Below are positions 15,749 through 31,645 of a stretch of DNA of 64,000 bases, one piece after another (positions within the stretch are counted from its first letter, which is position 1; every line of letters starts with the position of its first letter). The notes under the pieces are model-generated. The model saw nothing but the letters and a program-made list of their open reading frames with translations. It was not told the origin of the DNA and did no database searches. This DNA is from Polynucleobacter sp. CS-Odin-A6 (GTDB lineage: Bacteria; Pseudomonadota; Gammaproteobacteria; Burkholderiales; Burkholderiaceae). The DNA lies in contig NZ_JACVPD010000003.1 in assembly GCF_018882095.1 (NCBI RefSeq), positions 186,001 through 250,000 of the forward strand, read 5' to 3'. Position numbers and translations under genes: made by a program.

Positions 15749-16927
15749 ATGAGTAAAGCCAGCTTTAATTGGGCAGATCCCCTACTTCTTGATACACAGC
15801 TGACTGAAGAAGAACGCATGGTACGTGATGCTGCCGCAGAATACGCTCAAGGGCGTCTCATGCCGCGTATTCATGATGCTTTTCGTAACGAGACTACCGA
15901 CCCCACTATCTTCCGTGAAATGGGTGAGTTGGGTCTTTTAGGGATCACAATTCCTGAGCAATACGGTGGCGCTAATTTGAATTACGTTTCTTATGGCTTG
16001 ATCGCCCGCGAGATTGAGCGGGTTGATTCTGGCTATCGCTCGATGATGAGTGTTCAATCCTCCCTAGTAATGGTTCCTATCAATGAATTTGGTAGTGAAG
16101 CGCAAAAACAAAAATACCTACCTAAATTAGCTAGTGGTGAATGGATTGGTTGCTTTGGATTAACTGAACCGAACTATGGCTCAGACGCAGGTGGCATGAT
16201 TACCAGAGCCAAAAAAGTTCCAGGCGGATTTTCTTTAACGGGCTCCAAAATGTGGATCTCGAACTCCCCGATTGCTGATGTATTTGTGGTCTGGGCTAAG
16301 AATGATGAAGGTTTGATTAGAGGCTTCATCCTCGACAAAGGCATGAAGGGTTTATCTGCTCCAAAGATCAGTGGCAAGATGGGTTTAAGAGCCTCCATTA
16401 CCGGGGAAATCGTTATGGATGAAGTCTTCGTTCCTGCTGAAAATGAATTCCCTGAAATCACTGGCCTCAAGGGCCCCTTTACTTGCTTAAACTCGGCGCG
16501 CTACGGCATTGCCTGGGGAACACTGGGCGCAGCGGAGTGGTGTTGGTATGCCGCTCGTCAATACACCATGGATCGCAAGCAATTTGATCGTCCCTTGGCC
16601 GCAAATCAACTCGTTCAAAAGAAATTGGCTGATATGCAAACCGAGATTACGCTAGGTCTACAAGGTTGCTTGCGCTTAGGTCGCATGAAAGACGAAGGTA
16701 TTGCGGCACCAGAAATTACCTCCATCATGAAACGCAACTCTTGCGGAAAGTCATTAGATATCGCTCGCCTAGCGAGAGATATGCACGGTGGCAATGGCAT
16801 ATCGGATGAGTATGGTGTGATTCGTCATATGCTTAATCTGGAAGTAGTTAACACCTACGAAGGCACGCATGACATTCATGCTCTAATTTTGGGTCGTGCA
16901 CAAACGGGCATTCAAGCCTTTAGCTAA
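15749..16927 (+). CDS. gcdH: Glutaryl-CoA dehydrogenase
   Basis: A 392-residue FAD-dependent acyl-CoA dehydrogenase. It oxidatively decarboxylates glutaryl-CoA to crotonyl-CoA in lysine/tryptophan degradation. Family hallmarks: [35 protein letters not shown], and the catalytic Glu near residue 371 in NTYEGTHD, preceded by [16 protein letters not shown]. It stands alone, and its stop overlaps that of convergent mnmH. The crotonyl-CoA product could feed the 3-hydroxybutyryl-CoA dehydrogenase at 58.5 kb, but they are far apart. Confidence 0.93.
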
Positions 16928-17997
16928 ACAGCCACTTTAGTAATGAGGTCTTTTGCAGCCAATGCAAAGGCTTCATCGCTATCATCCTTTAGTTCTACGA
17001 AATGATCTTCGCGATAAGCGGGAAAATTACGCACGATTGAAGACTGGTAGGATGGGTCGTAATGCATCACCAATAACTCTTCAACCAGACTAGCGAATTC
17101 CCCTGCCTCAATGGCATCATGCCATTTACCAATTTGCACTTTGCCATAGCGTGATGTCAGCAAACTGAGCTTTTGTTTAAAGCTTTCAGGATTTGATAAG
17201 AAATGGCGATACTCACGCAGTAACCAAGATACTCGGGTCTGAGTACTCGATCGCAGCTCAATACATTTACCATCACGAATACGATCCATTAGGGCATCAG
17301 GAATATGGGTGCCCCCTACTTTTTTACTTTCAGATTCAACAAAAACTAGCTTAGTAGGATCGAGTGAGCGTAAGGCATTCCATAAATTGGTTTCAAAGCC
17401 TTTTTGAGAGGGCTGCTCAATATTGGGTTCGCTACCCAATACCGAGCCACGGTGAATAGCTAAGCCCTCAAGATCTAAAATCTGCCCACCGAGAGTGCTA
17501 ATTTCTTGAAGTAGGCGAGTTTTACCGCTACCCGTCATTCCGGCGATCACTTGAAATGAAAAATCCTTAGCCGCTTGCTCAAGACCATCAATCACGACTC
17601 GTCTAAAACCTTGATAGCCACTCTCCAATTGCATCGCTTTCCAGCCAATGCGATTCAAGATATGAGTAAATGCACCGCTCCGCTCACCGCCACGCCAACA
17701 ATAAATGAGAGGTCGCCATTCCCTAGGAAAATCGATGAGACTATTTTCTAAATAGTGAGCGATATTACGAGAAACATATGCCGCTCCCAACTTCTTCGCT
17801 GCGAATGGAGAAACTTGTTTATAAAGCGTACCAATCTCAATACGCTCTTCATTATTTAAAACGGGTAGATTGATTGCTCTAGGAATATGGTCTAAAGCAA
17901 ACTCTGCCGGTGAACGCACATCGATAATGGCATCAAACTCATGAAGCGATGCAGAAAGCTGATCAATATTCAGAATGTGAGGATTGCTCGATTGCAA
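16924..17997 (-). CDS. mnmH: tRNA 2-selenouridine synthase
   Basis: MnmH (SelU/YbbB) replaces sulfur of 2-thiouridine in tRNA wobble positions with selenium, via a geranylated intermediate. An N-terminal rhodanese domain has the active-site Cys near 100 in [10 protein letters not shown]. It is followed by a P-loop GMTGSGKT at about 153-160. The 357-residue length is typical. No selD is visible in the window. It is the last gene of the minus-strand sulfur locus, 8 bases after a thioesterase gene. Confidence 0.92.
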
Positions 17998-18005
17998 ACG
18001 GTGTC

Positions 18006-18425
18006 CTAGACCAGTTTACTTAGCAGATGATCGGGCCATGGCGCCGATTTGCCAGACTGCAGATCGACCCAAACCATCGTAGCGCCACCAACGGCAGCCA
18101 TTGAATCTGGCTGGGTTGTCAGAGCCATCGTTGTGTAGACATCGACACTGGTGCGGCCAATAGCACCGATATAGGTTTTTAGAATGAGTTCACCCGGGTA
18201 AGCTAACTGCTGATGGAAATTACAGAAACCATTAATCATCAACATGGATGCATCACCAGGAGAAAGGCTATAACCCAGTGAAGCAATCCACTCTACCCTA
18301 GCTTGCTCCATGTAACGAAAGTACACGGTGTTATTAATGTGGCCAAAGGCATCCATATCTCCCCAACGAATCGGCATATTCATTTCATGAACAAACCGTT
18401 TCTCAGCTGGGATCTCAATACGCAT
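18006..18425 (-). CDS. Acyl-CoA thioesterase (4HBT, YbgC-like)
   Basis: A 139-residue hotdog-fold protein. The motif RWGDMDAFGHINNTVYFRYMEQAR at about 20-43 carries the catalytic Asp of YbgC/FadM-type thioesterases. It probably cleaves acyl-CoA or acyl-carrier thioesters; substrate unknown. It sits 8 bases before mnmH and 17 bases after the DUF442 gene, so it is likely part of the same transcript. Its link to sulfur metabolism, if any, is only positional. Confidence 0.85.
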   Translation of the reverse strand: MRIEIPAEKRFVHEMNMPIRWGDMDAFGHINNTVYFRYMEQARVEWIASLGYSLSPGDASMLMINGFCNFHQQLAYPGELILKTYIGAIGRTSVDVYTTMALTTQPDSMAAVGGATMVWVDLQSGKSAPWPDHLLSKLV

Positions 18426-18442
18426 CTAAATGTCTGTAAAGA

Positions 18443-18787
18443 TCAGCGAACTTGCAATGCCATGTGATACAAATTAGTAGAGCGTGCTCCGGAGCGGCAG
18501 AAAGCCAAAATCGGCTCCGGCATCGTTTTCAATAAGCGCGCCATCTGAACCACTTGCTCGGGTGTAATTGCACCAGCAATCACCGGTAAATACGCATAGT
18601 TCAGACCTAGCGCTTCCGCCTGCGCTTGAATATCTACATTTCTTGGCTGATTTGGCCCTTCTTCAAAATCTGGGCGATTGTTGATTACGCTTTTGTAGCC
18701 CTGCTTTGCAATTTCAGCTAAGTGACTAGGGTCGATTTGGCCAAGCGTGCCAAATTCATTGGTGTGACAGGAAATAGGAAGGCTCAT
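18443..18787 (-). CDS. DUF442 / TIGR01244-family sulfurtransferase-like phosphatase (Blh-type)
   Basis: A 114-residue dual-specificity-phosphatase-like protein with the active-site loop FCRSGARS at about 96-103 (Cys97, Arg102). GQIDPSHLAEIAKQGYKSVINNRPDFE near the N-terminus is typical. This family is found fused to, or next to, rhodanese and persulfide dioxygenase genes and is thought to handle persulfide sulfur in the cytoplasm. Here it follows three YeeE/YedE genes. The exact reaction is not established. Confidence 0.85.
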   Translation of the reverse strand: MSLPISCHTNEFGTLGQIDPSHLAEIAKQGYKSVINNRPDFEEGPNQPRNVDIQAQAEALGLNYAYLPVIAGAITPEQVVQMARLLKTMPEPILAFCRSGARSTNLYHMALQVR

Positions 18788-18839
18788 CTCAATCTCAAAA
18801 TGTAATAGAAATATTCAAACTAGTAACTTACATTCTAAA

Positions 18840-19277
18840 TCAGACTGAATGTGAATGGCCTGTAAAGAAGCGATTGCAAAGAACCATGCCTGCAAGCATT
18901 GCCAAAACGAAGACTACTGCTTTGATGTGACCTGCCCCAAGCGCAACTATAGCCGGGCCAGGACAAAATCCCGCAATGCCCCATCCCGCTCCAAAGATGA
19001 GGCTACCGATTACGAGGGGTCTGGAAATATCCCTTTTACTCGGAATATGAAGTGCACCATCAAAAAAAGATAACGCACGCTTAGAGGCAAAGTAAAAACC
19101 TCCTAAACCCACGATTACCGCACCACCCATTACAAAAATTAAGGATGGATCCCAATCGCCAGTGATATCCAGAAAATTAAGAATTTTTTGAGGATTACAC
19201 ATACCGGAAATGATCAGGCCCAGACCAAAAAGTACCCCGATAAAGTATTGGCTATAAAGATGAAAATATCTTCTCAT
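18840..19277 (-). CDS. YeeE/YedE-type membrane protein, PmpB-like (DUF6691)
   Basis: A 145-residue membrane protein with about four hydrophobic segments and conserved cysteines in SGMCNP (Cys27) and AGFCPGPA (Cys105). These resemble the sulfur-handling cysteines of YeeE/YedE transporters. It is the second half of a split pair with the gene just upstream, separated by 3 bases. Such pairs sit next to sulfide- or thiosulfate-oxidation genes in many proteobacteria. Transport of a sulfur compound is inferred. Confidence 0.85.
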   Translation of the reverse strand: MRRYFHLYSQYFIGVLFGLGLIISGMCNPQKILNFLDITGDWDPSLIFVMGGAVIVGLGGFYFASKRALSFFDGALHIPSKRDISRPLVIGSLIFGAGWGIAGFCPGPAIVALGAGHIKAVVFVLAMLAGMVLCNRFFTGHSHSV

Positions 19278-19280: not shown

Positions 19281-19718
19281 TTAGAAGCCCAGTACGTGGC
19301 GAATGACAAATACCGTAAAGAAGCCGGCAGCCATAAACGTGAACGTGGCCACTAGAGATCTAGGGGATAGTCTGGATAGACCGCAGATCCCGTGGCCACT
19401 AGTGCAACCTGATCCATAGTTGGCCCCAAAGCCCACTAATACACCAGCAAGAATGATGGCAAACCAATCGGCATCAATCACCACTTCTGTGTGGAAATCA
19501 AATAAGATAGCAGCCCAGAATGGAGCGCTTAACATTCCCAGTAGCAAAATAAGGCGCCAATGAACATCACCAAATCTCGGTGAGAGCAGACCAGCAATAA
19601 TTCCGCTGATGCCTAGAATCCGACCGTGCAATAGAATAAATAAAGAAGAAGCGATACCCAATATGATTCCGCCAAGCAGCGCTGGACCAGGAGTAAATGC
19701 TATCCAATTTATCTGCAT
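19281..19718 (-). CDS. YeeE/YedE-type membrane protein, PmpA-like
   Basis: A 145-residue membrane protein with about four hydrophobic helices. The conserved motif YGSGCTSGHGICGLSRLSPRS at about 101-121 (Cys105, Cys112) is the YeeE/YedE signature. With the 145-residue PmpB-like partner downstream it would make a heterodimeric equivalent of a full-length YeeE transporter. Its position between the 373-residue YeeE protein and PmpB supports a shared sulfur-import role. Confidence 0.86.
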   Translation of the reverse strand: MQINWIAFTPGPALLGGIILGIASSLFILLHGRILGISGIIAGLLSPRFGDVHWRLILLLGMLSAPFWAAILFDFHTEVVIDADWFAIILAGVLVGFGANYGSGCTSGHGICGLSRLSPRSLVATFTFMAAGFFTVFVIRHVLGF

Positions 19719-19735: not shown

Positions 19736-20857
19736 TTAGCTACAGGGATTTGGAGCCATGCGAACTTGAAGGTAGCGCATCGCTAAATAGGCGCCAAAAA
19801 TAAATCCAGGCAAGGCAAGGATTGATCCAATGGCTAAAGTAGAAATTCCACTTAAGCCCTGACCAACAGTACAGCCAAGCGCAGTAACTCCACCAAACCC
19901 CATCAGAGTAGCGCCAACCAAGTGATTCGCAGTGTCCTCTGTATTGCGGAAACTTTCCCAACGAAAAGATTTGGTAATTAAGGCTATAAACGCCGAACCA
20001 GAAATCATGCCGATCACTGCAGCAATGCCAACAGTAATCACCTTAGAGGTATCGCTGTACATCATTAAGAAATCCAATGAATATGCATAAGGGGCAACAA
20101 AAGATAAGCTCTCCATTCGGCCAGAGTTAGTCAATAGAAAGACTTCTGCCAATGTGTTGGGATCTTCAGCCACATAGCCTAGACTTCCTGAGATCCACCA
20201 GATTGCACAGATCGCAAGGCCAACAAAAATACCGGCAAACAGATTTTCTAAGGTCCAAAATGCCTTGGTAGCCAGCGCATAAACAGTAAAGCCAAACCCG
20301 ACAAACAAGCCAAGGGCAAGATGCAAATCATTGCGGGCAATGCCCATAACTGGACTCAAGATACTGGGTAAGTCTTGAGGCGTATTTAAGGCAATAAATA
20401 CAGAATCAAGCGTATTAATGCGTATGACCCCAAGAAAACCTCTCATCGTCATGTAGGCAGATAGCCCTAGAACCAGAAATACAATAATCGATTTCAGATT
20501 CCCGCCGCCAATACGAACGAGTGTCTTGCTACCGCAACCAGATGCAAGCACCATTCCAAAACCAAAGAGTGTGCTCCCTACTATAGAAGAAAGCCATAAT
20601 ACTTTGCTGCCGGTATACATACTCTTGAGAGGATCAATCATTCCCATATAAGACATCAAAGCAAAGCCAATAATGGCAACGCCAATCGCCAGAAACCACT
20701 GCTTTAGACGGACCCAGCTAGACATAATAAAAATATCTGAAACAGCACCCATACTGCAAAAACCGGTCTTTTGCATGACGGCACCCAATAAAAATGTGAC
20801 TGCAAAAGTGGCTAGTAAAACAGTCTTGCTAAGGGAGGAAATATCTACCGCATCCAT
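19736..20857 (-). CDS. YeeE/YedE family transporter (TsuA-like, probable thiosulfate uptake)
   Basis: A 373-residue protein with roughly nine to ten membrane segments. Conserved cysteines are at about 34 (KTGFCSMG), 108 (ASGCGSKTL) and 329 (ALGCTVGQGLSG), the pattern through which TsuA relays thiosulfate across the inner membrane. It could bring thiosulfate or a related sulfur anion to the cytoplasm beside the periplasmic Sox system. The precise substrate is inferred from family and context. Confidence 0.88.
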   Translation of the reverse strand: MDAVDISSLSKTVLLATFAVTFLLGAVMQKTGFCSMGAVSDIFIMSSWVRLKQWFLAIGVAIIGFALMSYMGMIDPLKSMYTGSKVLWLSSIVGSTLFGFGMVLASGCGSKTLVRIGGGNLKSIIVFLVLGLSAYMTMRGFLGVIRINTLDSVFIALNTPQDLPSILSPVMGIARNDLHLALGLFVGFGFTVYALATKAFWTLENLFAGIFVGLAICAIWWISGSLGYVAEDPNTLAEVFLLTNSGRMESLSFVAPYAYSLDFLMMYSDTSKVITVGIAAVIGMISGSAFIALITKSFRWESFRNTEDTANHLVGATLMGFGGVTALGCTVGQGLSGISTLAIGSILALPGFIFGAYLAMRYLQVRMAPNPCS

Positions 20858-20879: not shown

Positions 20880-21194
20880 TTATTTAAATTTATAAAACTG
20901 TTTATTTAGGAAGGCCACTACATCTGCCTCGTCCTCAGGGAAAAGGTCCAGGCGCAATTCACTATTGCACCTCGCTACCATTGAATTTAAATTCTGCAAA
21001 TTCTTTACTTTGCCGTCACTGCGCGTGTAAATCATATCCCCATTACTAAATCCGCTTTTCTTAGCATGGCAAGCGTAGCATTTCTGCTCATCAATTTTTT
21101 TTCCATTTGCAATATCAGGAGTGGCGTATACAGGTGGCTGCAGACCGAACAACATCGTGAAGGTTAGGAAGCACTTCAATAGTGGTAATTTCAT
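20880..21194 (-). CDS. Small exported monoheme c-type cytochrome
   Basis: A 104-residue protein with a signal peptide (about 1-24) and a single heme site CYACH at about 39-43. Met54 (GDMIYT) is a possible distal ligand, and an extra Cys lies near 75. The C-terminal FPEDEADVVAFLNKQFYKF is a typical cytochrome helix. It should carry electrons in the periplasm, perhaps from one of the neighbouring sulfur enzymes. I do not recognise it as a named Sox subunit. Confidence 0.8.
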   Translation of the reverse strand: MKLPLLKCFLTFTMLFGLQPPVYATPDIANGKKIDEQKCYACHAKKSGFSNGDMIYTRSDGKVKNLQNLNSMVARCNSELRLDLFPEDEADVVAFLNKQFYKFK

Positions 21195-21254: not shown

Positions 21255-22226
21255 TTATTCGGCCTGAATCGAGAGGTAAACGTTATAGGCATTCATACGA
21301 TTGGCGGCCCTAAATAAGGGCATTCCTTCGTATTCAGACCAATCCGTCTGCTTATAGGCCTCCTCAAAAGAGTCCATATTGATAGCGGCGGTAGACATCG
21401 ATTGACGTAAATACTGGAGATATGCCCGTGTAAAACGGATGTCCTCAACCGGGTTAGTAGAAACCGCCCCGTGACCAGGAATAACGATTTTGGACTTAAA
21501 TCGATCAAAACGATCCAAGGAAGCCAGCCAGCCTTTGCTATCAGCATTACCAACATAAGGAATGCGACCTCTAAAAACAAGGTCACCTACAAAGAGGGCA
21601 TGTTCAGTCGGCACATAAATAATCAGATCTTCTGGTGCATGTGCTGGCCCTACTCGACTGATTAGAAAATCAATACCGCCAACTGTTAACTTATATTCTC
21701 GATCGATCCAAATATCTGCCCCTTGAAGTCGAGTGTTTTCATCTATCCAAGGAGCAAAATCTACCCGTGAGGCAATCAGCCTTTGTTTGGCGGTTTCTGA
21801 CGACAGGTAATTACGACCTTCATTCTGGGCATATATCTTGGCGCCAATCTTCTTAAACTCTTGTAGACCATAAATATGATCTGCATGATAGTGGGTCACA
21901 ATCACGGCGACAATTTTTTGAGAGGTGACCTTTTGAATTTCTTTGATGAGATGCTTAGCTAATGTAGGCGAGCCCAAGGAGTCGATCACGACAACCCCTT
22001 TTGGAGTTACTACAAAACCAGCATTAGAAATGAAATTTTGATTTTGACTACTACCCATTTCTGCCAAGCCCTGAACAAAATAGGTATGGGGGGCAACTTG
22101 AACTGGTTTAAAGAGGATGCCTGATGAAACCGAAGTTTTTTTTAGGGCTTGAGCTTGCGCAAACCCAAGAGAAATCGCATGAATCAATAATGTGATTCCA
22201 ATACGTCTGATTAGCTTCTGATGCAT
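21255..22226 (-). CDS. Exported metallo-beta-lactamase-fold hydrolase (SoxH-like)
   Basis: A 323-residue protein with a signal peptide (about 1-26) and the zinc motif THYHADH at about 111-117. Further ligands lie in RVGPAHAPEDLIIY, LFVGDLVFRGR and VIPGHG. This resembles SoxH of sox clusters and the quinoprotein-associated zinc metallohydrolases. The ATG at 22226 is preferred over a TTG at 22235. It follows the DsrE-like gene by 15 bases. Its substrate in sulfur oxidation is not known. Confidence 0.85.
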   Translation of the reverse strand: MHQKLIRRIGITLLIHAISLGFAQAQALKKTSVSSGILFKPVQVAPHTYFVQGLAEMGSSQNQNFISNAGFVVTPKGVVVIDSLGSPTLAKHLIKEIQKVTSQKIVAVIVTHYHADHIYGLQEFKKIGAKIYAQNEGRNYLSSETAKQRLIASRVDFAPWIDENTRLQGADIWIDREYKLTVGGIDFLISRVGPAHAPEDLIIYVPTEHALFVGDLVFRGRIPYVGNADSKGWLASLDRFDRFKSKIVIPGHGAVSTNPVEDIRFTRAYLQYLRQSMSTAAINMDSFEEAYKQTDWSEYEGMPLFRAANRMNAYNVYLSIQAE

Positions 22227-22241
22227 TGAGATCAAACGAAG

Positions 22242-22679
22242 TTACGGCTTAATATAAGCAAAACCATCTTTGTATTGCAAATCTGCAACCCGAACTACGC
22301 CAGATGGTACAAAGTCAGCATCAAGAATAAATTGATCTTTCTTCAAATTGCGATTGACCAAGGTAATTTCACACACCTCAAAACGTACGCCACGCGACTT
22401 CAGAGCACCAACCAGGGGCGCATACTCAGTATTATTCTTGGCATCTTTAGCGCCTTCCATTAACAAGTCCACGCCATTAGCATGTGTCACCACAATAATT
22501 TTTGTACCAGGCGATACATCTAGGTGATTACGAACATTACGCAGCCCTTTTAATCCTTGGACTTGAGCATCATCAATGTGATAAACCACCTTTGTGCCAT
22601 CAGCAGCTATTGCCTGTTGATATCCAAGGGCGCTAAAAGCCATTAAAAGAGCGGTAGTGATGTGGATGAAAGTCTTCAT
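22242..22679 (-). CDS. Exported DsrE-family protein
   Basis: A 145-residue protein with a signal peptide (about 1-26, ending AIAA) and a DsrE/DsrF-like fold. Visible features are KVVYHIDDAQVQGLKGLRNVRNH and IIVVTHANGVDLLM, and one Cys near 103 in FEVCEITL, where sulfur-carrier Cys residues occur in this family. DsrE proteins usually bind persulfide sulfur in the cytoplasm; a periplasmic version fits a role with Sox. It lies 44 bases after soxB. Confidence 0.83.
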   Translation of the reverse strand: MKTFIHITTALLMAFSALGYQQAIAADGTKVVYHIDDAQVQGLKGLRNVRNHLDVSPGTKIIVVTHANGVDLLMEGAKDAKNNTEYAPLVGALKSRGVRFEVCEITLVNRNLKKDQFILDADFVPSGVVRVADLQYKDGFAYIKP

Positions 22680-22723: not shown

Positions 22724-24457
22724 TTATGTAAGCGGAACCATGCCTGGATTATTTTTAATTCCCTTAATCATAGGCTCATTCAGCTTAACTGCTTTAACTA
22801 CTTTTACATCACGTAAATGTCGTTCGATGACATCCCAGATAGGCTCGCCACCAACATCCTTCGCCTCTTCGCTTACTGGAGCCCAACCAGCTACCTTATA
22901 AGTCTTGCTGGGATCAATGCTCTTGCCATTCAAACGCATATCACTGATGCGATTGCCGATTGTTGCAACTGGATCAATCGTATATTGCATACCGCCTACA
23001 CGGACCATATCACCACCCTGCTGATAATAGGGGTCAGGATTAAACAAGTTATCGGCAACATCCTCCAGAATCGTTTTTATAGTGTCACCAGTCATATTGG
23101 TCAATGTGGTGTAGGGATAAGTAATGGCGGTTTGATCTAATAAGTTTTCACGAGTAATTGCTTGGCCAGGCAAAAGGCTGGTCCCCCAGCGGAAGCCAGG
23201 TGAGAATGCAATTTCAGCATTCTTCTGCGCCATGAGGCCATCCAAGATTAATTGGTCGAAGCTGCCATTGAAGTTACCACGGCGATACAAGAGGCTATCT
23301 GTCGTGGCTAATTTTTCATTAAGCTTGGTTTCGTAAGGAGCTCTCACTTTTGCAATCAACTGATTCATTGCCGGATCAGCTGGAATCATGTTTGAAAAGA
23401 TTGGGAACAACTTGTAACGGAAATCAACCGGCTTACCGCTCTTCACATCAAAATCAAGCACACCCAAGAACTTGCTATTTGAGCCCGCATTGGTGACTAA
23501 AGTGACTCCTGCAGCATTTTTAACTTTCACGGGAATTGGCACACCGTCATGAGTATGGCCACCCATAATGGCATCCAGACCAGTGACCCGTGAAGCCATC
23601 TTCAAGTCTACATCCATACCATTGTGAGAAAGCAGGACGACCACTTTGGCTCCCTTCGCTTTCACCTCATTGATGGTCTTTTGTAAATTCTCTTCCTGAA
23701 TTCCAAAAGTCCAGTCTGGAGTGAAGTAACGGGGATTGGCAATCGGCGTATACGGGAATGCTTGACCAATAACGGCAACCCGAATACCGTTTTGCACTTT
23801 CATGACATAGGGGTTGAATACAGAATCTCCGAAGTCTGCGGTCTGAATATTCTGCGCAACAAAAGACACCTTGCCTTTGAAATCGCCGTTGACGATCTCC
23901 ATCACCCGCTTTTCACCAAGAGTCATCTCCCAATGCGCCGTCATGACGTCAACACCTAAGAGTAAAGCGGCATCAACCATATCTTGACCATTAGTCCAGA
24001 GCGCAGTACCTGAACCCTGCCATGTATCGCCACCATCCAAGACTAAGGAGCCTGGACGACTGGCTTTCAGCTGCTTGATGAGAGTTGCCATATGAGCAAA
24101 GCCACCCATCTTGCCGTAATTCTGGGCTGCAGCGACATAATCTAAGTAGGTAAATGCATGGGCATCACGCGTCCCCGCAATAATACCATTCGCTTTCAGG
24201 AAATATTCGCCCACTAAATGCGGAGTTTTACCTTCTTGAGAAGTGATGCCTATATTGACATTTGGCTCGCGAAAATAAATTGGCAAGAGCTGGGCGTGAC
24301 AGTCGGTGAAGTGCAAGAAATGCACATTACCAAATTTCGGTAAATCATAAAATTTTTGCGCGGAAGTTTGTGCTCCAGCAAAATTGGATTGCAAACCCAT
24401 TCCGCCAGCAGACGCGATGGCGAGGGCTTGCAAGAACTCACGGCGATTTAAAGACAT
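22724..24457 (-). CDS. soxB: Thiosulfohydrolase SoxB
   Basis: SoxB hydrolyses the terminal sulfone from SoxY-bound S-thiosulfonate, releasing sulfate, in the periplasm. A Tat signal NRREFLQA is at about 4-11. Dimanganese-site motifs of the 5'-nucleotidase superfamily follow: HFTDCHAQL (Asp52, His54), LDGGDTWQGSG, LLSHNGMD and GGHTHDG. The C-terminal domain holds FSPGFRWGTSLLPGQ. At 577 residues it is full length. The region before its start forms a hairpin (24473-24498). Confidence 0.97.
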   Translation of the reverse strand: MSLNRREFLQALAIASAGGMGLQSNFAGAQTSAQKFYDLPKFGNVHFLHFTDCHAQLLPIYFREPNVNIGITSQEGKTPHLVGEYFLKANGIIAGTRDAHAFTYLDYVAAAQNYGKMGGFAHMATLIKQLKASRPGSLVLDGGDTWQGSGTALWTNGQDMVDAALLLGVDVMTAHWEMTLGEKRVMEIVNGDFKGKVSFVAQNIQTADFGDSVFNPYVMKVQNGIRVAVIGQAFPYTPIANPRYFTPDWTFGIQEENLQKTINEVKAKGAKVVVLLSHNGMDVDLKMASRVTGLDAIMGGHTHDGVPIPVKVKNAAGVTLVTNAGSNSKFLGVLDFDVKSGKPVDFRYKLFPIFSNMIPADPAMNQLIAKVRAPYETKLNEKLATTDSLLYRRGNFNGSFDQLILDGLMAQKNAEIAFSPGFRWGTSLLPGQAITRENLLDQTAITYPYTTLTNMTGDTIKTILEDVADNLFNPDPYYQQGGDMVRVGGMQYTIDPVATIGNRISDMRLNGKSIDPSKTYKVAGWAPVSEEAKDVGGEPIWDVIERHLRDVKVVKAVKLNEPMIKGIKNNPGMVPLT

Positions 24458-24504: not shown

Positions 24505-25152
24505 TTATTTATTTACGGGAGACTCTGGATCAAGCAGCAGTGCCATGACATCTTGCATTTGCTTCTCATTCAAAAGTTTAAAGTGTCCAAAGCGAGGCAT
24601 ATTGCTACAAGCGTTGTATGCCTTAGAGTTATTAATGCGATTCCAGGTATAGGTCACTACTTCCTGGGTATAGCCGCGAAGCTTAGCGTACCCAGTTAAA
24701 GAAGGGCCAATATTTCCATAAGAAATCTCCTTAGGATCGATTTGATGACAGTTGTAACATCCACCACCAATCACGGTATCGGCTTTATCTGTCCAAGTAG
24801 CACCACGGCCGCTTTGAGCAATACTCTCACCCCGCTTCCAGTCTCCGAGGTATTTGCCATCAGAAGGCTGTTTAATCGCATCCATATTGATTTTTTGAAT
24901 CTTCACTCTCATCGCCTCACCCTGCTTGCTATTCGCAAACTGGGGGTCTGAACAAAACTTCTGAGTAGCATCTTGGTCAATGCGATCGAGACCCGCAATA
25001 CCATCTGCTTTGAAGCTATCTTGAATCATCTTATTGAACTTAGGGTCATTTTTTTGCTGAGCGACTGCTACATTCTGCAGGAGGCTTGAAGCAAAAATAA
25101 ATCCAGCAAGCGCTAAGAGTTTTTTGATATTTGTATTTTTCATGATCATCAT
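24505..25152 (-). CDS. soxX: Sulfur oxidation c-type cytochrome SoxX
   Basis: SoxX accepts electrons from the SoxA-catalysed joining of thiosulfate to SoxY. It has a signal peptide (about 1-31) and a single heme site CYNCH at about 132-136. NIGPSLTGYAKLRG follows, and FGHFKLLNEKQMQDVMALLLDPESPVNK ends the protein. The long segment before the heme marks the longer SoxX subtype (215 residues). The start could be any of three Met codons at 25152, 25149 or 25143. soxA lies 10 bases upstream. Confidence 0.95.
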   Translation of the reverse strand: MMIMKNTNIKKLLALAGFIFASSLLQNVAVAQQKNDPKFNKMIQDSFKADGIAGLDRIDQDATQKFCSDPQFANSKQGEAMRVKIQKINMDAIKQPSDGKYLGDWKRGESIAQSGRGATWTDKADTVIGGGCYNCHQIDPKEISYGNIGPSLTGYAKLRGYTQEVVTYTWNRINNSKAYNACSNMPRFGHFKLLNEKQMQDVMALLLDPESPVNK

Positions 25153-25162: not shown

Positions 25163-25978
25163 TTAGCGCTTCAATCCAGGCGTTTCGACAGTACCGCCAT
25201 TAGCCGTCTTAGCCATATACATAGATAAGGCTATGGTTACATCGGAACCATAAATAGGAAATGGAAAGCGCTGCTGGCGGAAGCAATCATTTAGACGTTG
25301 TTGCATTGTCCAAAATTGACCGCTGGATACTCGGTAGGCTGGCCAATACCCCCAGCCTAGCGCAGCGCCTTTTTGTTCCGTAATATTTGGCAGGTCTTGG
25401 AGGCGAATACGCTTACCGTTCTCTGCATGGCATGAGGCACATGAAAAGTCCATTGGACCACCCTGAAAAAAGAAGGCGCGTTTGCCCAAGTCATACATCT
25501 CTTTTTCCTTAGGATGGGCTGTGGTCACTTTGATCTTGTCACCTTTAGATAAGGTAACCACATATGCAACGATTGCCTCCATATCCTTTTTAGGGCCAAT
25601 CTGAAAAGGGGCATCGATCATCTCTTGTGGATTACGCCCTTGCAATACCTGCATACAGGTCATCAAGCGGGATTCCAGATCCTGAACTTTGTTTGTATCT
25701 TTAAAGTAGCGTGGCAACTGCGCCGCAGCTCCTTTAACTACACCGGCACCTAAGCCCAAATCACACTTTTCTAGGGTTGCATTTTTAGGCCCAGCAGGTT
25801 TTTTCCATAAATCTTCACCTGCCGCCTCATAGAGTTCTGAAGGATTACCATCAGCAATCATCTCGCGATATTTTGCAATATCATCCGTGGCACTATTTTG
25901 CGCCCAAGATGAAGATGACATCGTGAATACGGTAGCCAATAAGCCAGTGGCTAGCCCTAATCTCAGTTTTCGTTGCAT
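25163..25978 (-). CDS. soxA: Sulfur oxidation c-type cytochrome SoxA (one heme)
   Basis: SoxA with SoxX joins thiosulfate to the SoxY carrier Cys. It has a signal peptide (about 1-27). One heme motif, CASCH, lies at about 180-184, and the likely active-site Cys near 232 (LNDCFRQQR). Cysteines at about 72 and 108 stand where diheme SoxA proteins have their first heme region, here without CxxCH, so this is a one-heme SoxA. ATG at 25978 is chosen because GAAAGGG precedes it; an upstream TTG is less likely. Confidence 0.95.
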   Translation of the reverse strand: MQRKLRLGLATGLLATVFTMSSSSWAQNSATDDIAKYREMIADGNPSELYEAAGEDLWKKPAGPKNATLEKCDLGLGAGVVKGAAAQLPRYFKDTNKVQDLESRLMTCMQVLQGRNPQEMIDAPFQIGPKKDMEAIVAYVVTLSKGDKIKVTTAHPKEKEMYDLGKRAFFFQGGPMDFSCASCHAENGKRIRLQDLPNITEQKGAALGWGYWPAYRVSSGQFWTMQQRLNDCFRQQRFPFPIYGSDVTIALSMYMAKTANGGTVETPGLKR

Positions 25979-26030
25979 TTGCAACCCTTTCAAAACAAAT
26001 TCATAAAGATCAAATCAAAAAACGGTGAAA

Positions 26031-26339
26031 TTAAGAAGCGGTTGCTTCATCAGTACGTTTATCACCCTTGCTATCAATCCAAGTCACCACAATCTTGTCA
26101 CCCTTAGCGCCTTTGTACTTAAAGTTCAAAAATGGGTCTTTAGAAACAGCAGGGCCAAATTGGCCATTAAACACATCTTTACCATTTGCAGTCACCTTGA
26201 TGGTGCTAATAAACCAAGCCGGGACAGTTTTTCCAGCAGCATCTTTACGCTGACCTGACTCCATATCGTGCTTCATCAAAATTTTTACGTCTACAGTGCC
26301 ACCGCTTTCGGCAGCTCTTACGCGCATCGGATCACCCAT
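26031..26339 (-). CDS. soxZ: Thiosulfate oxidation carrier complex protein SoxZ
   Basis: A 102-residue SoxZ: no signal peptide, immunoglobulin-like beta fold. MRVRAAESGGTVDVKILMKHDMESGQRKD is at the N-terminus and FNGQFGPAVSKDPFLNFKYKGAKGDKIVVTW at the end. SoxZ pairs with SoxY and is co-exported with it through SoxY's Tat signal. It lies 55 bases after soxY and 52 before the soxA start. Confidence 0.96.
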   Translation of the reverse strand: MGDPMRVRAAESGGTVDVKILMKHDMESGQRKDAAGKTVPAWFISTIKVTANGKDVFNGQFGPAVSKDPFLNFKYKGAKGDKIVVTWIDSKGDKRTDEATAS

Positions 26340-26394: not shown

Positions 26395-26847
26395 TTAACC
26401 GCCGCAACCACCTAAAGTAACCTTGACTTCTTTAACCGCCATCAACCATTTACCGTCAGCCTTGACTAAGCCATAGACATTTGATGTTTGACCCATTTTG
26501 ATGCGGGTAGTCACGAATGCATCTGTTCCTGATGGGATAAAGAATTGCGCTGCCAAAGAGCTTGGATTCTTTTCAACCAAGATAGCCATTTGCTCTGCTT
26601 TTAAGCTTGTAATAATGCCCACCGGAACTACGGCACCGTTTTCAGCGATATCCGGCGCATTTAAAGTAACGGCGGATGATTTTTCTGGACTTCCGCTGCT
26701 CAGAATTTTAAAAACGTCATCCAAGCTTTTGCCTTCAAAGGCAGCTTTATTCCACTCTTGGGCTTGGGCTACGCTGATAAGACCGGATGAGGCCATTAAA
26801 CTAAAAACCGCTGAATACTTTAAAAGACTACGTCGTTGCTGATTCAT
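26395..26847 (-). CDS. soxY: Thiosulfate oxidation carrier protein SoxY
   Basis: SoxY holds the sulfur substrate on its C-terminal Cys during the whole Sox cycle. The protein has a twin-arginine signal (QQRRSLLKYSAVF at about 3-15) and ends in the hallmark GGCGG with Cys near 148. Length is 150 residues. An 84-base AT-rich gap separates it from soxD, enough room for an internal promoter, though I cannot point to one with confidence. Confidence 0.97.
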   Translation of the reverse strand: MNQQRRSLLKYSAVFSLMASSGLISVAQAQEWNKAAFEGKSLDDVFKILSSGSPEKSSAVTLNAPDIAENGAVVPVGIITSLKAEQMAILVEKNPSSLAAQFFIPSGTDAFVTTRIKMGQTSNVYGLVKADGKWLMAVKEVKVTLGGCGG

Positions 26848-26931: not shown

Positions 26932-28017
26932 CTACTTACCTTCAGATAGCATCCAAGTAACCAATGCCCTGCGGTCTTCATCGGAAAGTTGGGCTTGAGG
27001 AGGCATTGGAATAGCCCCCCAAACCCCTGCACCACCACTCTTAACCTTAGCCATCAATTTGTCCTGAGCATCGCTTTGCCCCTTGTATTTATTGGCTACA
27101 TCCGTAATAGAGGGACCTACTAATTTGGTATTGGATGCGTGGCAAGCCGAGCAATTTTCGCTTTTAAATAGTGCAGCAGGACCTTTCGAGGCCAAAGAGG
27201 GAGTATTAACAGAAGGAGTTACTCCTGTACCTGCGGAAACAGGCAGCTGCTTTAATGGCGGCTTAGTCGTATCTGCACCTCGATAGGGTCCATACATTCG
27301 ATTTTGATCTGCGATATTTTCATGGGCATTACGGGCAAAATCCGGCAAGGTAGAACCGATCTGGACAAAGGGAACGCAATTATTCATACAAGCGTTGCCA
27401 TTCACATCCGGTTTGCCGTCCACACTCCAAAGCCCATGTTTCGTTGTCATGCCATTTCGATTGGGCATTTTGATATCGGCGATATTGTTATTACTCAGGA
27501 CAAAATCATCCGGAACAATATCGCCTAAACTTAACGTGAAGGCCACCAAAGCATAAGTATCATCAGGCGTTAAAGATCGAGGTGCATTCCATGGCATGGC
27601 ACGATAAATATAGTCCCATAAGGTTGAAACTGTTGCCACCTTCATTAAGGTAGTGCGTTGCGGTTGCTTCATATCGTTTAATGAAGCAACACGACCTGTC
27701 TTAATATCTTCTTTTGTAGTACCGCCGGCGATCGGAGTAAAGATTTCATTTGAATCCCCAAAGGTGCCGTGACAACTTGCACACTTCGCCTCCCAAATTT
27801 CCTGCCCTTTCGCTACTGAACCAGATCCCTTTGGCAAGCCCTTAAAGTCCGGTCTAACATCAATATCCCAAGCGGCAACTTCAGCAATAGTGGCATGACG
27901 GCCAATACCAGGGTACTTGACGGATGGGGTTTGAGATTGCGCAAAGGCGAAATTGGCTCCCAGTAAAATAGTCCCAACCGAAATAGCACACGAAATAAAT
28001 TTATCCCACTTGCACAT
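26932..28017 (-). CDS. soxD: Sulfur dehydrogenase cytochrome subunit SoxD
   Basis: The diheme c-type cytochrome partner of SoxC; it takes the electrons from oxidation of the SoxY-bound sulfane sulfur. A signal peptide (about 1-27) is followed by heme sites CASCH (about 79-83) and CSACH (about 289-293). Methionine-rich VWGAIPMPPQAQLSDED lies near the end. The start at 28017 (MCKWDK) overlaps soxC by 17 bases; a start at 28032 is also possible. Confidence 0.92.
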   Translation of the reverse strand: MCKWDKFISCAISVGTILLGANFAFAQSQTPSVKYPGIGRHATIAEVAAWDIDVRPDFKGLPKGSGSVAKGQEIWEAKCASCHGTFGDSNEIFTPIAGGTTKEDIKTGRVASLNDMKQPQRTTLMKVATVSTLWDYIYRAMPWNAPRSLTPDDTYALVAFTLSLGDIVPDDFVLSNNNIADIKMPNRNGMTTKHGLWSVDGKPDVNGNACMNNCVPFVQIGSTLPDFARNAHENIADQNRMYGPYRGADTTKPPLKQLPVSAGTGVTPSVNTPSLASKGPAALFKSENCSACHASNTKLVGPSITDVANKYKGQSDAQDKLMAKVKSGGAGVWGAIPMPPQAQLSDEDRRALVTWMLSEGK

Positions 28018-29401
28018 TACTGACCTCACCATTGGAATCTAATTTCCAAGATTGAATTGCATTATTGTGATAAATCGATCGTGTGCCGCGTAAGTTACGG
28101 AGTGTCTTGATGGAAGGCTGAATGTAACCCGTATCATCCACAGCTCTTGATTGCATAATGGCGGGCGAACCATCCCAAATCCAATCAATATTAAATCGAG
28201 TTATAGACTTGGTGAGGATAGGCGTTTCCAAACGGGCTGTACGCCAGTTATTGCCGCCATCAAAGGAAACATCGACACGTTTAATCTTGCCGCGGCCAGA
28301 CCAAGCCATGCCACTGACGTTATAGAAACCTTTGTCTAGTAGTTGTTGGCCACCAGATGGTGTAGTGATAACCGATTTACATTCTTGGATCGAGGTGTAT
28401 TGACGATGCTCACCATTTGGCATGAGATCAATATAGTGAATCGCTTCGTCTTTTGAATTCCAAGGCATGTCGCCTACCTCTAGGCGCCGCAGCCATTTGA
28501 CCCAGCTAACCCCCTGCACACCTGGCACAACCAGGCGCAATGGAAAGCCGTTTTCAGGGCGTAACATCTCGCCATTCATACCCCATGCAACAATCGCATC
28601 CTGAAGATTGCTTTCTAGGTTAATGGTTCGAGTCATGCCAGAGCCGTCACCACCCTCGGCAAGCATGTACTTCCCTTTCTTCAAATCAGCACCACACTCT
28701 TCAAGCAATACTTTAAGAGGTACACCTGTGAACTCACAACAGGACAGCATGCCGTGGGTGTACTGAACCGTTGGTACAGCAACGTTACCCCACTCAAGAC
28801 CAGTGTTCGCACCGCACTCAATAAAGTGTGTACGTGAAACTGAAGGTAAACGCATTAAATCATTCATCGTAAATACACGTGGGTTTTTTACTAGACCATT
28901 CACCATCAAACGATGGGTTTCTGGGTTGAGGTTATACCAACCCTGATGGTGCCGCTCAAAATGCAAACCATTCGGTGTAATGGTTCCAAATAAACCTTGT
29001 AGTGGCGTAAATGCAACTGAAGAGGCTGAAACACGCGTTAAGCCAGGAGACTGACGACGTATTAAGTTTGACTCATAGATAGACGGGACACCATAAGGCA
29101 TAGTTGCTACGTTCTTGCCTAAAGTCGTTTGCCATTCTTGTTTTTCTAGAATCGCAGGATCGCCCTCGCCTGCAGCCATAGCCAGAGGTGCTGATAGTCC
29201 AGCGGCAACACCACCTAATGCAGACATAAAACCTTTACGCAAAAAACCACGACGATTTTCATCCAAGCCATTGCTATTAATTTCGGCAATCAGATCCTGT
29301 GAAATAAAATGCTCTGGCGCCTTAACTAGACGAGCTCTGTGGCTCAACCTTTCGATTGTGTCGACATCTTCTGCGCTAATCTCTATTTGTTTATTTGTCA
29401 T
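28001..29401 (-). CDS. soxC: Sulfite/sulfane dehydrogenase molybdoenzyme subunit SoxC
   Basis: A sulfite-oxidase-family molybdenum cofactor protein that with SoxD removes six electrons from the SoxY-bound sulfane sulfur. The Tat signal NRRGFLRKGF is at about 49-58, after a long N-terminal region. The molybdenum-ligand Cys is near 196 in THFIECGANTG. Downstream are GGDGSGMTRTI, PLRLVVPGVQGVSWVKWLRRLEV and a dimerisation domain. At 466 residues it is slightly longer than Paracoccus SoxC. It lies 34 bases after the ArsR regulator. Confidence 0.95.
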   Translation of the reverse strand: MTNKQIEISAEDVDTIERLSHRARLVKAPEHFISQDLIAEINSNGLDENRRGFLRKGFMSALGGVAAGLSAPLAMAAGEGDPAILEKQEWQTTLGKNVATMPYGVPSIYESNLIRRQSPGLTRVSASSVAFTPLQGLFGTITPNGLHFERHHQGWYNLNPETHRLMVNGLVKNPRVFTMNDLMRLPSVSRTHFIECGANTGLEWGNVAVPTVQYTHGMLSCCEFTGVPLKVLLEECGADLKKGKYMLAEGGDGSGMTRTINLESNLQDAIVAWGMNGEMLRPENGFPLRLVVPGVQGVSWVKWLRRLEVGDMPWNSKDEAIHYIDLMPNGEHRQYTSIQECKSVITTPSGGQQLLDKGFYNVSGMAWSGRGKIKRVDVSFDGGNNWRTARLETPILTKSITRFNIDWIWDGSPAIMQSRAVDDTGYIQPSIKTLRNLRGTRSIYHNNAIQSWKLDSNGEVSNVQVG

Positions 29402-29435
29402 GTAATTTCTAATTTAAGGAACAGCTGCTAATCAA

Positions 29436-29807
29436 TTAATGCAAACTCTCGGCAATCTTTGCGCATACCGTTTGACACATCTCAACGGTTGCGTTGTCAG
29501 CAATTGAATAAAAAACGGTGGTTCCTTCTTTGCGCCTTAACAAGATTCCAGCTTTATGCAACATTGCGAGATGACGTGACACATTCGCCTGGCTAGAGCC
29601 ACATAACTGGATGACCTCAGAAACCGACTTTTCACCGCTACAGACCGCGTACATGATGCGCAGGCGCGCTGGCTCAGACAGTACATCGAAGTATTGGGCA
29701 ACGCGTTCGAATACCTTCTCCATCAAAGCCGGAGATAGGTTACTGGTTGCTTTTTTGAGCTTAGCCTTATTATTCATTAATTTATTGTTGTATGCGTATA
29801 TATGCAT
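29436..29807 (-). CDS. soxR: ArsR-family regulator, SoxR-like
   Basis: A 123-residue winged-helix repressor (VLSEPARLRIMYAVCSGEKSVSEVIQLCGSSQANVSRHLAMLHKAGILLRR at about 42-92). Cysteines lie at about 56, 69, 111 and 115. One before the SGE turn and one near the C-terminal helix match the paired redox thiols of SqrR/BigR/SoxR sulfur sensors, so persulfide sensing is likely. An AAGAG sequence supports the ATG at 29807. An alternative start at 29777 would put the palindrome at 29791-29808 outside the gene. It heads the sox locus. Confidence 0.85.
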   Translation of the reverse strand: MHIYAYNNKLMNNKAKLKKATSNLSPALMEKVFERVAQYFDVLSEPARLRIMYAVCSGEKSVSEVIQLCGSSQANVSRHLAMLHKAGILLRRKEGTTVFYSIADNATVEMCQTVCAKIAESLH

Positions 29808-29808
29808 A
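29791..29808. promoter_or_regulatory. 18-bp near-palindrome, candidate SoxR operator
   Basis: TATGCGTATATATGCATA is symmetrical at 8 of 9 base pairs. It lies at the start of the soxR-like gene, between it and divergent modB, overlapping the probable promoter. ArsR-family repressors bind AT-rich palindromes of this size. Assignment to SoxR is inferred from position. Confidence 0.55.
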
Positions 29809-29879
29809 TATTAAACTCTTACATCCAACAGAACCATATAGAGAGATACCCTTACTAGAACAGCCAATACAATGGCAGC

Positions 29880-30533
29880 ATGGATACCGATGCAATCCTT
29901 CTCTCCCTCAAGCTCGCCTTCTGGACATTAGCACTCATACTGCCATTTGGTATTTGGGTCGCTCATCGACTCATGAGCTTAAATAAAAGTCGCCCCTGGA
30001 TTGAGGCGGCTTTAGCTCTGCCTCTCGTATTACCCCCTACTGTATTGGGCTACTATTTTTTAGTGGGCTTGAGCGAACAATCTATTTTTGGATTCCCTTT
30101 GGTTTTCTCGTTTTACGGCATTCTCATTGCCTCATTAATCGTGAATCTACCCTTTGCTATACAGCCAATACAAAGGGCCTTTGAGGCCATCAATCCAGAA
30201 ATTCGAGAGGCAGCTCAAGTCAGCGGACTTAGTCAATGGCAAATATTTCGACTGATTGAGTTGCCATTAGCCTGGCGTGGGATTACCAGCGCAGCTGTTA
30301 TCACATTTGCTCATACGCTGGGTGAGTTTGGAGTGGTCCTCATGGTTGGGGGCGCAATACCTGGCGAAACGAAGACTGTTTCTATTGCAATCTATGACAA
30401 AGTTCAAAATTTTGACACTGCTGGTGCAGGAGCTCTTTCTCTATTTTTATTAGCAACTTCCTTGATTGCAATCGCAATCTCTTACGGGATCTTTGCCCGC
30501 ACTTCTGCCCAGCCGTATAGAGGTGCTACCTAA
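29880..30533 (+). CDS. modB: Molybdate ABC transporter permease
   Basis: A 217-residue inner-membrane permease with about five hydrophobic segments and the EAA-loop EAAQVSGLSQWQIFRLIELPLA. The ModB hallmark FAHTLGEFGVVLMVGG is present, as is ALALPLVLPPTVLGYYFL. It should form the molybdate channel with ModC. It overlaps modC by one base (TAATG). Tungstate cannot be ruled out as substrate. Divergent from soxR, it probably supplies molybdenum for SoxC among others. Confidence 0.92.
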   Translation: MDTDAILLSLKLAFWTLALILPFGIWVAHRLMSLNKSRPWIEAALALPLVLPPTVLGYYFLVGLSEQSIFGFPLVFSFYGILIASLIVNLPFAIQPIQRAFEAINPEIREAAQVSGLSQWQIFRLIELPLAWRGITSAAVITFAHTLGEFGVVLMVGGAIPGETKTVSIAIYDKVQNFDTAGAGALSLFLLATSLIAIAISYGIFARTSAQPYRGAT

Positions 30534-31645
30534 TGTTAAAACTCAGGCTATCCCAACGTCTGCCGATGCCAATAGAAGTGAATCTGGAATGTGCAGCCGG
30601 TGAAATGCATGCCTTAGTTGGCCCATCTGGAAGTGGAAAAACGACTGTACTCAGAACCATTGCAGGCTTACGACATGCTAGTAGCGGAAGAATTGAATGC
30701 AACTCCGAAGTTTGGTTTGAGAGCGATGATTTAACTAGTACTCCAAAATTAATGACGGCTGCCCAACGGTCTTGCGGCTTTCTCTTTCAACAGTACGCCC
30801 TCTTTCCTCACTTAAACGCAATTGAAAATGTTTGCATACCACTGCAAAATTCAGGACTTAGCACTAGTGAACGTAAAGTGATTGCTTTAGACTGGCTAGA
30901 AAGAATGGGTATTGCTGAGCTTGCCCAACGCATGCCGGATCAACTGTCAGGTGGACAACAGCAGCGTATAGCCCTGGCAAGAGCATTGGCTAGAAAACCA
31001 AAAATCCTGCTGCTGGATGAGCCCTTTTCTGCAGTGGATGCTCCAACTCGTCAAAGCCTCTACAAAACCCTGGCAGATCTGCGTCAAGACCTCAACATCC
31101 CAATCCTACTCGTCACTCATGATTTGCGGGAGGCAAGTTTGCTGGCTGATCGGATCACGGTATTAGAGGAAGGCATTAGTCTGCAGACAGCAGCCCCACA
31201 AATATTATTTCAAAAACCACGAAACTCTCGTGTTGCTGAGTTAGTCGGGATTAGTAATCGGTTTCATGGGGTATTTAATGCTGGTAGTCTTACATGGGAT
31301 GGGTGTGATCAAACATTTGCAGTAGCCGATAAAGGCAAGATCCCAGCTAATACAAAAGTAGCTTGGGTCATTCCACAAAGCGGATTAAGTGCACACAATC
31401 ATTCCTCTTCTATAACAATGCCCGCTATTGTTAAAAAAGTGAGTAGCTTAGGTCAAATTTCAGTCATTCAGTTCTGTATTCAACAGAGCGAGAATACGAT
31501 CGAATGGGAAGCCTCAGCAGCAGAAGTAAAGCGACTCAATATTGAAGTTGGCGCTCTCATGCATCTGGAATTAGATGGCAGTCAAATTCATATCATGCCC
31601 TTAAGATCCATTAATGATCCCAGAAGATTTCTAGAGTCTATGTAG
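30533..31645 (+). CDS. modC: Molybdate ABC transporter ATPase
   Basis: A 370-residue ABC ATPase: Walker A GPSGSGKTT at about 30-38, signature LSGGQQQRIALARAL near 139-153, Walker B ILLLDEPF near 158-165, and LLVTHDLREA as the switch His. A C-terminal TOBE-like domain (about 290-355) may bind molybdate. It is coupled to modB by a one-base overlap. The gene for the periplasmic binding protein ModA is not in this cluster. It ends 5 bases from the convergent methyltransferase. Confidence 0.92.
   Translation: MLKLRLSQRLPMPIEVNLECAAGEMHALVGPSGSGKTTVLRTIAGLRHASSGRIECNSEVWFESDDLTSTPKLMTAAQRSCGFLFQQYALFPHLNAIENVCIPLQNSGLSTSERKVIALDWLERMGIAELAQRMPDQLSGGQQQRIALARALARKPKILLLDEPFSAVDAPTRQSLYKTLADLRQDLNIPILLVTHDLREASLLADRITVLEEGISLQTAAPQILFQKPRNSRVAELVGISNRFHGVFNAGSLTWDGCDQTFAVADKGKIPANTKVAWVIPQSGLSAHNHSSSITMPAIVKKVSSLGQISVIQFCIQQSENTIEWEASAAEVKRLNIEVGALMHLELDGSQIHIMPLRSINDPRRFLESM

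Follow-up and report, generated by a model that had tools for sequence, protein, structure and literature searches.

Gene content of the sox locus

The stretch analysed here, 64,000 nucleotides from Polynucleobacter sp. CS-Odin-A6 (the window; G000:C4:186001-250000 in an assembly of 2.10 Mb), carries a sox locus followed by a tail of sulfur-handling accessory genes. Seventeen open reading frames (ORFs), all on the minus strand, run from 29807 to 16924 in the order regulator, soxC, D, Y, Z, A, X, B, DsrE, hydrolase, cytochrome, YL, two half-YeeE genes, DUF442, thioesterase and mnmH, with intergenic gaps of –32 to 84 bp (Table 1). YL denotes the long YeeE/YedE transporter of the sox locus. The 17-gene run in a single direction from the regulator to mnmH, as described in the original prediction, was thus recovered, and so was the divergent modBC pair on the plus strand. 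The reading developed below, to which we give an even chance, is that this is a conserved chromosomal slot holding a cassette for thiosulfate oxidation, the core of which is a sulfur-import relay (SoxYZ to YL to DUF442). Among named genomes, the closest soxB belongs to Polynucleobacter sp. 80A-SIGWE (94% identical).

Gene identities were graded against curated profile cut-offs and are given as bits/cut-off. The soxCDYZAXB set, predicted to be complete, passed for SoxC (603/420), SoxY (162/125), SoxZ (117/76), SoxA (252/110), SoxX (83/61) and SoxB (868/550); SoxD yielded generic cytochrome matches and no specific model, so that soxD, which overlaps soxC by 32 bp, is named by its position and cytochrome domains. 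Most of the tail names were supported as well: MnmH (470/266), the DUF442 protein (TIGR01244, 95/86, with a CRSGAR active-site loop), YL (192/27) and half-YeeE 1 (33/27; both PF04143), half-YeeE 2 (163/27, DUF6691) and DsrE (45/22.7). The SoxH-like hydrolase is named less firmly, as it stayed under both SoxH-related cut-offs (163/280 and 154/300), and so is the small cytochrome, which has one CxxCH in its sequence and no Pfam match. ModB passed (201/183), whereas the ATPase in the modC position did not (179/285), which weakens the latter name. YL matched TsuA structures by sequence and fell below the TsuA equivalog cut-off (103/400). MnmH passed its equivalog cut-off in a genome that also encodes selD. 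The regulator in the soxR position matches ArsR proteins in general (77/55) and scores under the BigR cut-off (46/155), and its cysteines 56, 69, 111 and 115 align with non-cysteines in three alphaproteobacterial regulators, so that it does not show the cysteine positions of SoxR. Promoter-like sites (10 versus 26.1 in shuffled sequences) and terminator-like sites (15 versus 12.9) marked no clear break in the run, two of its gaps folded no better than shuffles, and an operator search at the soxR start returned short palindromes only. The 17 genes may be co-transcribed.

Table 1 Genes of the sox slot and its borders (window coordinates)
Feature	Position	Strand	Basis of the name
ArsR-family regulator, soxR position; four conserved cysteines (56, 69, 111, 115)	29436..29807	-	
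soxC	28001..29401	-	TIGR04555, 603 bits
soxD, two cytochrome c stretches	26932..28032	-	position and cytochrome domains
soxY, C-terminal carrier arm GGCGG	26395..26847	-	TIGR04488
soxZ	26031..26339	-	TIGR04490
soxA	25163..25993	-	TIGR04484
soxX	24505..25152	-	TIGR04485
soxB	22724..24457	-	TIGR04486, 868 bits
exported DsrE-family protein	22242..22679	-	PF02635; signal-like N-terminus read from sequence
metallo-beta-lactamase (MBL)-fold hydrolase, SoxH-like	21255..22235	-	PF00753
small c-type cytochrome, one CxxCH	20880..21194	-	sequence
YL, proposed sulfane-sulfur importer; Cys34, Cys108, Cys329	19736..20857	-	PF04143, 192 bits
half-size YeeE 1, PmpA-like	19281..19718	-	PF04143, 33 bits, C-terminal part of profile
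half-size YeeE 2, PmpB-like (DUF6691)	18840..19277	-	PF20398, 163 bits
DUF442/TIGR01244 sulfur transferase, CRSGAR loop, proposed cytoplasmic acceptor	18443..18787	-	TIGR01244
YbgC-type thioesterase	18006..18425	-	PF13279
mnmH, tRNA 2-selenouridine synthase	16924..17997	-	NF008752, 470 bits
modB, divergent	29880..30533	+	TIGR02141
ATP-binding cassette (ABC) ATPase, modC position	30533..31645	+	below ModC cut-off
acyl-CoA dehydrogenase, convergent border of slot	15749..16927	+	named from sequence

Conservation of gene order across the genus

We compared 118 loci read around YL (the window and 117 others). These were picked by YL matches, so that the presence of YL is given by construction and the comparison says nothing about sox loci without YL; L131-L134, L136, L140 and L141, which are centred on mnmH, and L153, L158 and L161 were left out. 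Order and strand were as in the window in 118/118 loci. All 17 genes were present, intact or broken, in 60 loci and scored intact in 40, some of the genes scored as fragmentary across the set being short proteins just under 85% coverage. Both soxB and mnmH stood in window order in 105 loci, and the tail order is therefore kept in sox-bearing relatives. DUF442 accompanied YL in every locus, while a thioesterase was not found in 14, one of which is a cut stretch. Wherever the borders were seen, modB was divergent (104/104) and the acyl-CoA dehydrogenase convergent (102/102). Conservation of individual residues was as follows: the arm cysteine of SoxY was kept in all 115 loci with soxY and its GGCGG end in 113, Cys34, Cys108 and Cys329 of YL in 117/117, 118/118 and 118/118, and the CRSGAR loop of DUF442 in 116/118.

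At the level of whole genomes, matches above cut-off were found in 171 (SoxB), 153 (SoxC), 175 (SoxY), 176 (MnmH) and 181 (SelD) of 186 genomes of the genus, and a YL match in 177. In 14 control genomes, SoxB, SoxC and SoxY were above cut-off in none, MnmH in one and SelD in two. The distance between soxB and mnmH could be compared in the 122 genomes common to both lists of 150 rows per gene; among these listed matches, 101 genomes had mnmH on the soxB strand at a distance of 4.4-7.2 kb downstream, 6 had it elsewhere on the contig and 15 on another contig (several in fragmented assemblies).

The ArsR-type regulator was found in 81 of the 118 loci; among the 37 without it, some stretches end before its place. 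Since so many YL loci lack a recognised regulator, YL does not seem to need it. This bears on the idea that YL is a signalling transporter feeding sulfur to an ArsR-type SoxR, as proposed for SoxT1B in the soxSRT arrangement of Hyphomicrobium (in the portion of PMC11582611 at hand). That precedent and the four conserved cysteines of the regulator would fit, but with the regulator not seen in those 37 loci and its cysteines out of register with the alphaproteobacterial ones, we regard a signalling function as very unlikely.

An exchangeable cassette in a conserved tail

The contents of the slot vary. Besides the full set of the window, we found loci without the regulator, soxC, soxD, the hydrolase and the cytochrome (e.g., G184, G104, G022, G182), loci reduced to soxY-soxZ-YL-half pair-DUF442-mnmH (G005, and G033 with a broken thioesterase), a locus spanning YL to mnmH with soxB 486 kb distant (G039), and eight loci with sox and a fused YL-DUF442 that lack the half-YeeE genes and mnmH. 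To locate boundaries, each relative without the full set was compared with the nearest full-type genome, chosen by flanking genes. Between G104 and G101, identity was 90-99% in the flanks, fell to 69-82% from soxY to YL and recovered to 91-97% from the half-YeeE genes to mnmH. G090 showed the same dip, and in G184 it began at soxZ. The dip was clear in G005 (YL 61%, next gene 85%) and G032 (YL 66%, next gene 77%) though surrounding values were lower, and less clear in G033; G022, G182, G068 and G040 showed no clear dip because their flanks had diverged too. YL is not simply fast-evolving, since its identity between the window and L006, at 90%, exceeds that of the next gene (75%). Because identity falls over soxY to YL and recovers after YL, YL was exchanged together with sox. 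By this pattern of identities, the long YeeE travels with the sox cassette, while the half-YeeE pair, DUF442, the thioesterase and mnmH stay with the chromosome. Instead of the predicted joint unit of 17 genes, we accordingly read the locus as a sox-YeeE cassette that can be exchanged within a conserved tail of the chromosome, with mnmH as a separable neighbour.

A simpler account would be an ordinary sox operon beside unrelated sulfur and tRNA genes, kept in order by vertical inheritance in one genus and without joint function; we consider it a serious, if unlikely, alternative. The cassette border between YL and the half-YeeE gene speaks for it, as does the position of mnmH beside selD or elsewhere in other genomes, but order and strand were kept in all loci despite the cassette change. 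In G121 and G180, mnmH and selD are adjacent and divergent, and the mnmH copies of the mnmH-centred loci are 45-49% identical to that of the window. The gene is often found at this place, yet it can be parted from its neighbours and is not a required component. An MnmH without selenium supply was considered and rejected, as this genome is among those with SelD above cut-off; its selD lies with modA within 7 kb (L127:8401-15077, G000:C2), far from mnmH and modBC and near a gene for a 527-residue protein resembling several rhodanese repeats. We found no paper in the open-licence literature that pairs selenouridine synthase with sulfur oxidation. A link between modBC and the SoxC cofactor was likewise not supported, because modB remains beside loci without soxC and soxD. 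Beyond modC, a MetZ-like sulfhydrylase gene (32272-33480, named by eye) adjoins the slot and has been retained there in many relatives.

Fusion of YL to DUF442

In L029, L030 and L031 (two metagenome-assembled genomes and P. cosmopolitanus), YL and DUF442 form one frame of 505-507 residues. The fusion occurs in 8 of the 118 loci, two of which (G012, G030) are from the genomes of L031 and L029, and YL frames of 506-514 residues were present in at least 14 genomes among the matches listed. The predicted structure of the L031 fusion is of moderate quality (mean predicted local distance difference test, pLDDT, 66; predicted template modelling score, pTM, 0.58), and domain contacts are not reliable from it. 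The model matched TsuA (6leo; target-normalised template modelling score, TM, 0.83) and the TsuA-TsuB complex (8k1r; 0.67) as well as the DUF442 structures 2f46 (E 0.0035) and 3gxg/3gxh (E about 0.1), with probability 1.00. YL by sequence, its fused relative by predicted fold and the three conserved cysteines thus agree on the YeeE/TsuA family. The fusion argues against the alternative of unrelated neighbours. In P. cosmopolitanus, a TauE-like protein and RND (resistance-nodulation-division)-efflux-like genes lie between the fusion and the thioesterase (L031:13411-19121).

Of 399 genomes of the order, seven of them from this genus, 175 encode a relative of YL (E 1e-30 or better). None of the matches listed was fused to DUF442 and none extended beyond residue 390 of 505, so that no fusion outside the genus was seen in this set. 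The 23 loci of YL relatives outside the genus that were read had no window-gene homologues within 1.5 kb, except for a 25%-identical hydrolase in one; their neighbours look, by eye, like pal, cpoB, queC and tcdA genes, which favours the unrelated-neighbours account. In a tree, which includes no SoxT1 reference and in which deep forks are weak and E. coli TsuA forms a long branch, Polynucleobacter YL nested within Burkholderiales YeeE, whereas five alphaproteobacterial YeeE proteins, three of them seen beside sox, formed a clade of their own; a second YeeE from a Paracoccus sox region fell elsewhere. YL is thus encoded with sox genes, as SoxT is, and does not group with the sox-linked alphaproteobacterial YeeE; descent from an alphaproteobacterial SoxT is not supported by this placement.

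Retention of soxYZ and YL in decaying loci

In each of six loci, several genes are broken (G031, G033, G034, G036, G037, G051). After genes cut by the end of the stretch read had been removed by hand, and with the borderline dsrE (G034) and cytochrome gene (G037) counted as intact, soxY, soxZ, YL and mnmH were intact in 24 of 24 cases, whereas only 37 of 78 other genes were intact and 41 were broken (Fisher 5e-7, a descriptive value). Restricting the count to genes of at least 900 bp gave 12/12 for YL and mnmH against 7/28 for the others (9e-6), and a per-locus length model of retention gave a joint chance of 3e-7. Endosymbionts may be among these genomes. G005 gave no match to SoxB and none above cut-off to SoxC, yet soxY, soxZ, YL, the half-YeeE pair, DUF442 and mnmH were intact between intact flanks (SoxY 121 versus a cut-off of 125, SoxZ 107 versus 76). 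G033 had no SoxA or SoxB match and a weak SoxC-family match only (E 1e-5). These patterns suggest that the soxYZ-YeeE carrier and importer part can outlast the oxidation genes. Their survival is a further point against unrelated neighbours. Additional SoxA matches, which point to a second sox place, were noted: a second above cut-off in the genome of the window (G000:C5:183152-183769), two in G039 and one in pieces in G031. A Paracoccus alcaliphilus plasmid (L165:4197-8977) carries a cytochrome, two flavin adenine dinucleotide (FAD) oxidoreductases, YeeE and soxYZ in one run, and no soxAXB within that stretch as read, an arrangement that also fits the relay.

Proposed relay and points against it

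Within the slot, which is bordered by modBC on one side and the acyl-CoA dehydrogenase on the other, SoxAX, SoxB, SoxYZ and SoxCD would oxidise thiosulfate in the periplasm. The swinging arm of SoxYZ would also present sulfane sulfur to YL, which would move part of it inward along its three conserved cysteines to cytoplasmic DUF442, and from there sulfur may reach cytoplasmic uses such as regulator sensing, cofactors or tRNA modification. We favour this relay because the parts, the YL-DUF442 fusion and the retention pattern fit it.

Several observations weigh against it. The decay statistics are descriptive: broken genes were the reason for picking the loci, and the four focal genes had already drawn attention before the test was run. 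Moreover, some of the six loci may be related by descent, and assembly errors could account for broken frames. In G051, both DUF442 and the half-YeeE genes are broken; the half-YeeE genes are also broken in G031, and one half in G034. Since mnmH is kept as strongly as YL, the retention pattern does not point to the relay in particular. In G005, a SoxA match above cut-off lies 265 kb away from the slot; this genome is therefore not free of all Sox enzymes, and a second, incomplete Sox set may be what its SoxYZ serves. Full oxidation does not depend on import where SoxCD is present. Sox genes occur without YL alongside in L153 (G123) and L028, and the YL relatives of the order that have no sox neighbours within 1.5 kb imply that YL may have a sox-independent role.

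SoxYZ might instead be a general periplasmic carrier of sulfur, perhaps also of selenium, that loads the YeeE importer, with DUF442 and MnmH downstream and oxidation as an add-on. This would account for soxYZ, YL and mnmH remaining intact where soxAXB and soxCD decay, and we judge it unlikely.

The way in which SoxYZ thiols are kept reduced had been left open in the original prediction on the grounds that soxF, soxV and soxW were not seen. The profile scans of the window indeed returned none of these names (SoxF was not sought genome-wide), but the question is not wholly open: elsewhere in the genome there are a DsbD-type frame of 567 residues (C3:449526) and a thioredoxin that begins with a signal-like sequence and has a CcdA-type protein immediately after it (L129:8148-9256). 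Identity between this CcdA and three sox-linked ones is 25-26% (E 6e-16 or better), while the similarity of the thioredoxin to sox-linked ones is unconvincing (E 0.04 to one partner only; 63/97 against the thioredoxin cut-off). The pair and the DsbD-type protein are candidates for keeping SoxYZ reduced.

Sox loci beyond the genus

In 53 named loci whose soxB is 75% identical or less to that of the window (L032-L085 without L059), several of them short, no half-YeeE, DUF442, thioesterase or mnmH gene was found, which again favours unrelated neighbours. In L079, from an Oxalobacteraceae metagenome-assembled genome, soxB is followed by a hydrolase, DsrE, a cytochrome, a YeeE of 26% identity and an ArsR regulator; L045, L071, L072 and L083 carry a YeeE of 28-29% identity on the other strand. 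On a Ruegeria plasmid, sox, CcdA and thioredoxin, an ArsR regulator and YeeE occur together with TIGR01244, DUF6691, a half YeeE and an MBL-fold hydrolase. That DUF442 lies beside sox in this plasmid, along with a YeeE and half-YeeE genes, counts against unrelated neighbours.

The same plasmid, with its hydrolase next to DUF442 and half-YeeE genes, would also suit a persulfide and hydrogen sulfide (H2S) stress module like the bigR operon, in which the tail handles toxic sulfane sulfur from Sox and does not import it for use. The genome has a second half-YeeE pair together with a BigR-like regulator, an ETHE1-like hydrolase and a TauE-like protein (L128:5915-8845, G000:C5; the latter two named by eye), probably a separate H2S/persulfide locus, and this too lends the stress module some plausibility. 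In the tail, however, no ETHE1-like protein was named, the hydrolase is closest to SoxH-related models, and the regulator lies far below the BigR cut-off, while an 82-residue piece of the L128 regulator scored 101, also below it. A stress module is, in our view, quite unlikely.

For the relay, the natural fusion of YeeE to DUF442 and the persistence of soxYZ-YeeE where soxB and soxCD are missing offer a compact, testable gene set for the sulfur-import step, found in a genus of freshwater bacteria.

Comparison with known systems

In the portion of PMC11582611 at hand, SoxT1A of Hyphomicrobium is presented as the sole experimentally shown sulfur importer of dissimilatory sulfur oxidisers, and a path from SoxYZ through SoxT1A to Rhd442 is considered. 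A SoxYZ-YeeE-DUF442 path has thus already been proposed, and our comparisons would lend it independent support from a YeeE of apparently different ancestry. No paper combining DUF442 and YeeE was found in the open-licence literature. The soxT1A-Rhd442 arrangement of Hyphomicrobium denitrificans resembles the present one in its YeeE-type transporter, DUF442-type rhodanese and sox genes, with SoxYZ as the proposed donor. The present locus differs in that YL belongs to a Burkholderiales YeeE clade (in a tree that did not include the H. denitrificans YeeE itself), SoxCD is present and relatives carry the YL-DUF442 fusion. The thiosulfate uptake system TsuA-TsuB (YeeE-YeeD; 6leo, 8k1r, 8j4c) shares the fold, the conserved cysteines and the fusion of transporter and sulfur carrier (the 8j4c and 8k1r chains carry both names), whereas the partner here is DUF442 and not a TusA-like YeeD, and YL scores below the TsuA cut-off. 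The bigR operon (Blh, TauE) likewise combines a DUF442 sulfur transferase with an ArsR-type regulator, sulfur transferase activity being ascribed to the DUF442 part of Blh in the available text of PMC5823870; in the slot, DUF442 stands alone or fused to YL, without an ETHE1 domain, and the regulator is under the BigR cut-off. Rhodobacterales plasmid soxVW-soxSRT clusters also join the Sox core to an ArsR regulator and YeeE, in Ruegeria with DUF442 and half-YeeE genes nearby, but they hold CcdA and thioredoxin inside the cluster, while the pair lies elsewhere in the Polynucleobacter genome. Within the same genus, SOX genes of strain QLW-P1DMWA-1 have been published in three clusters (Figure 7 of PMC3308952), thiosulfate oxidation being described as not yet confirmed in the strain; to the extent that this paper was available, the YeeE, DUF442 and mnmH tail is not discussed there.

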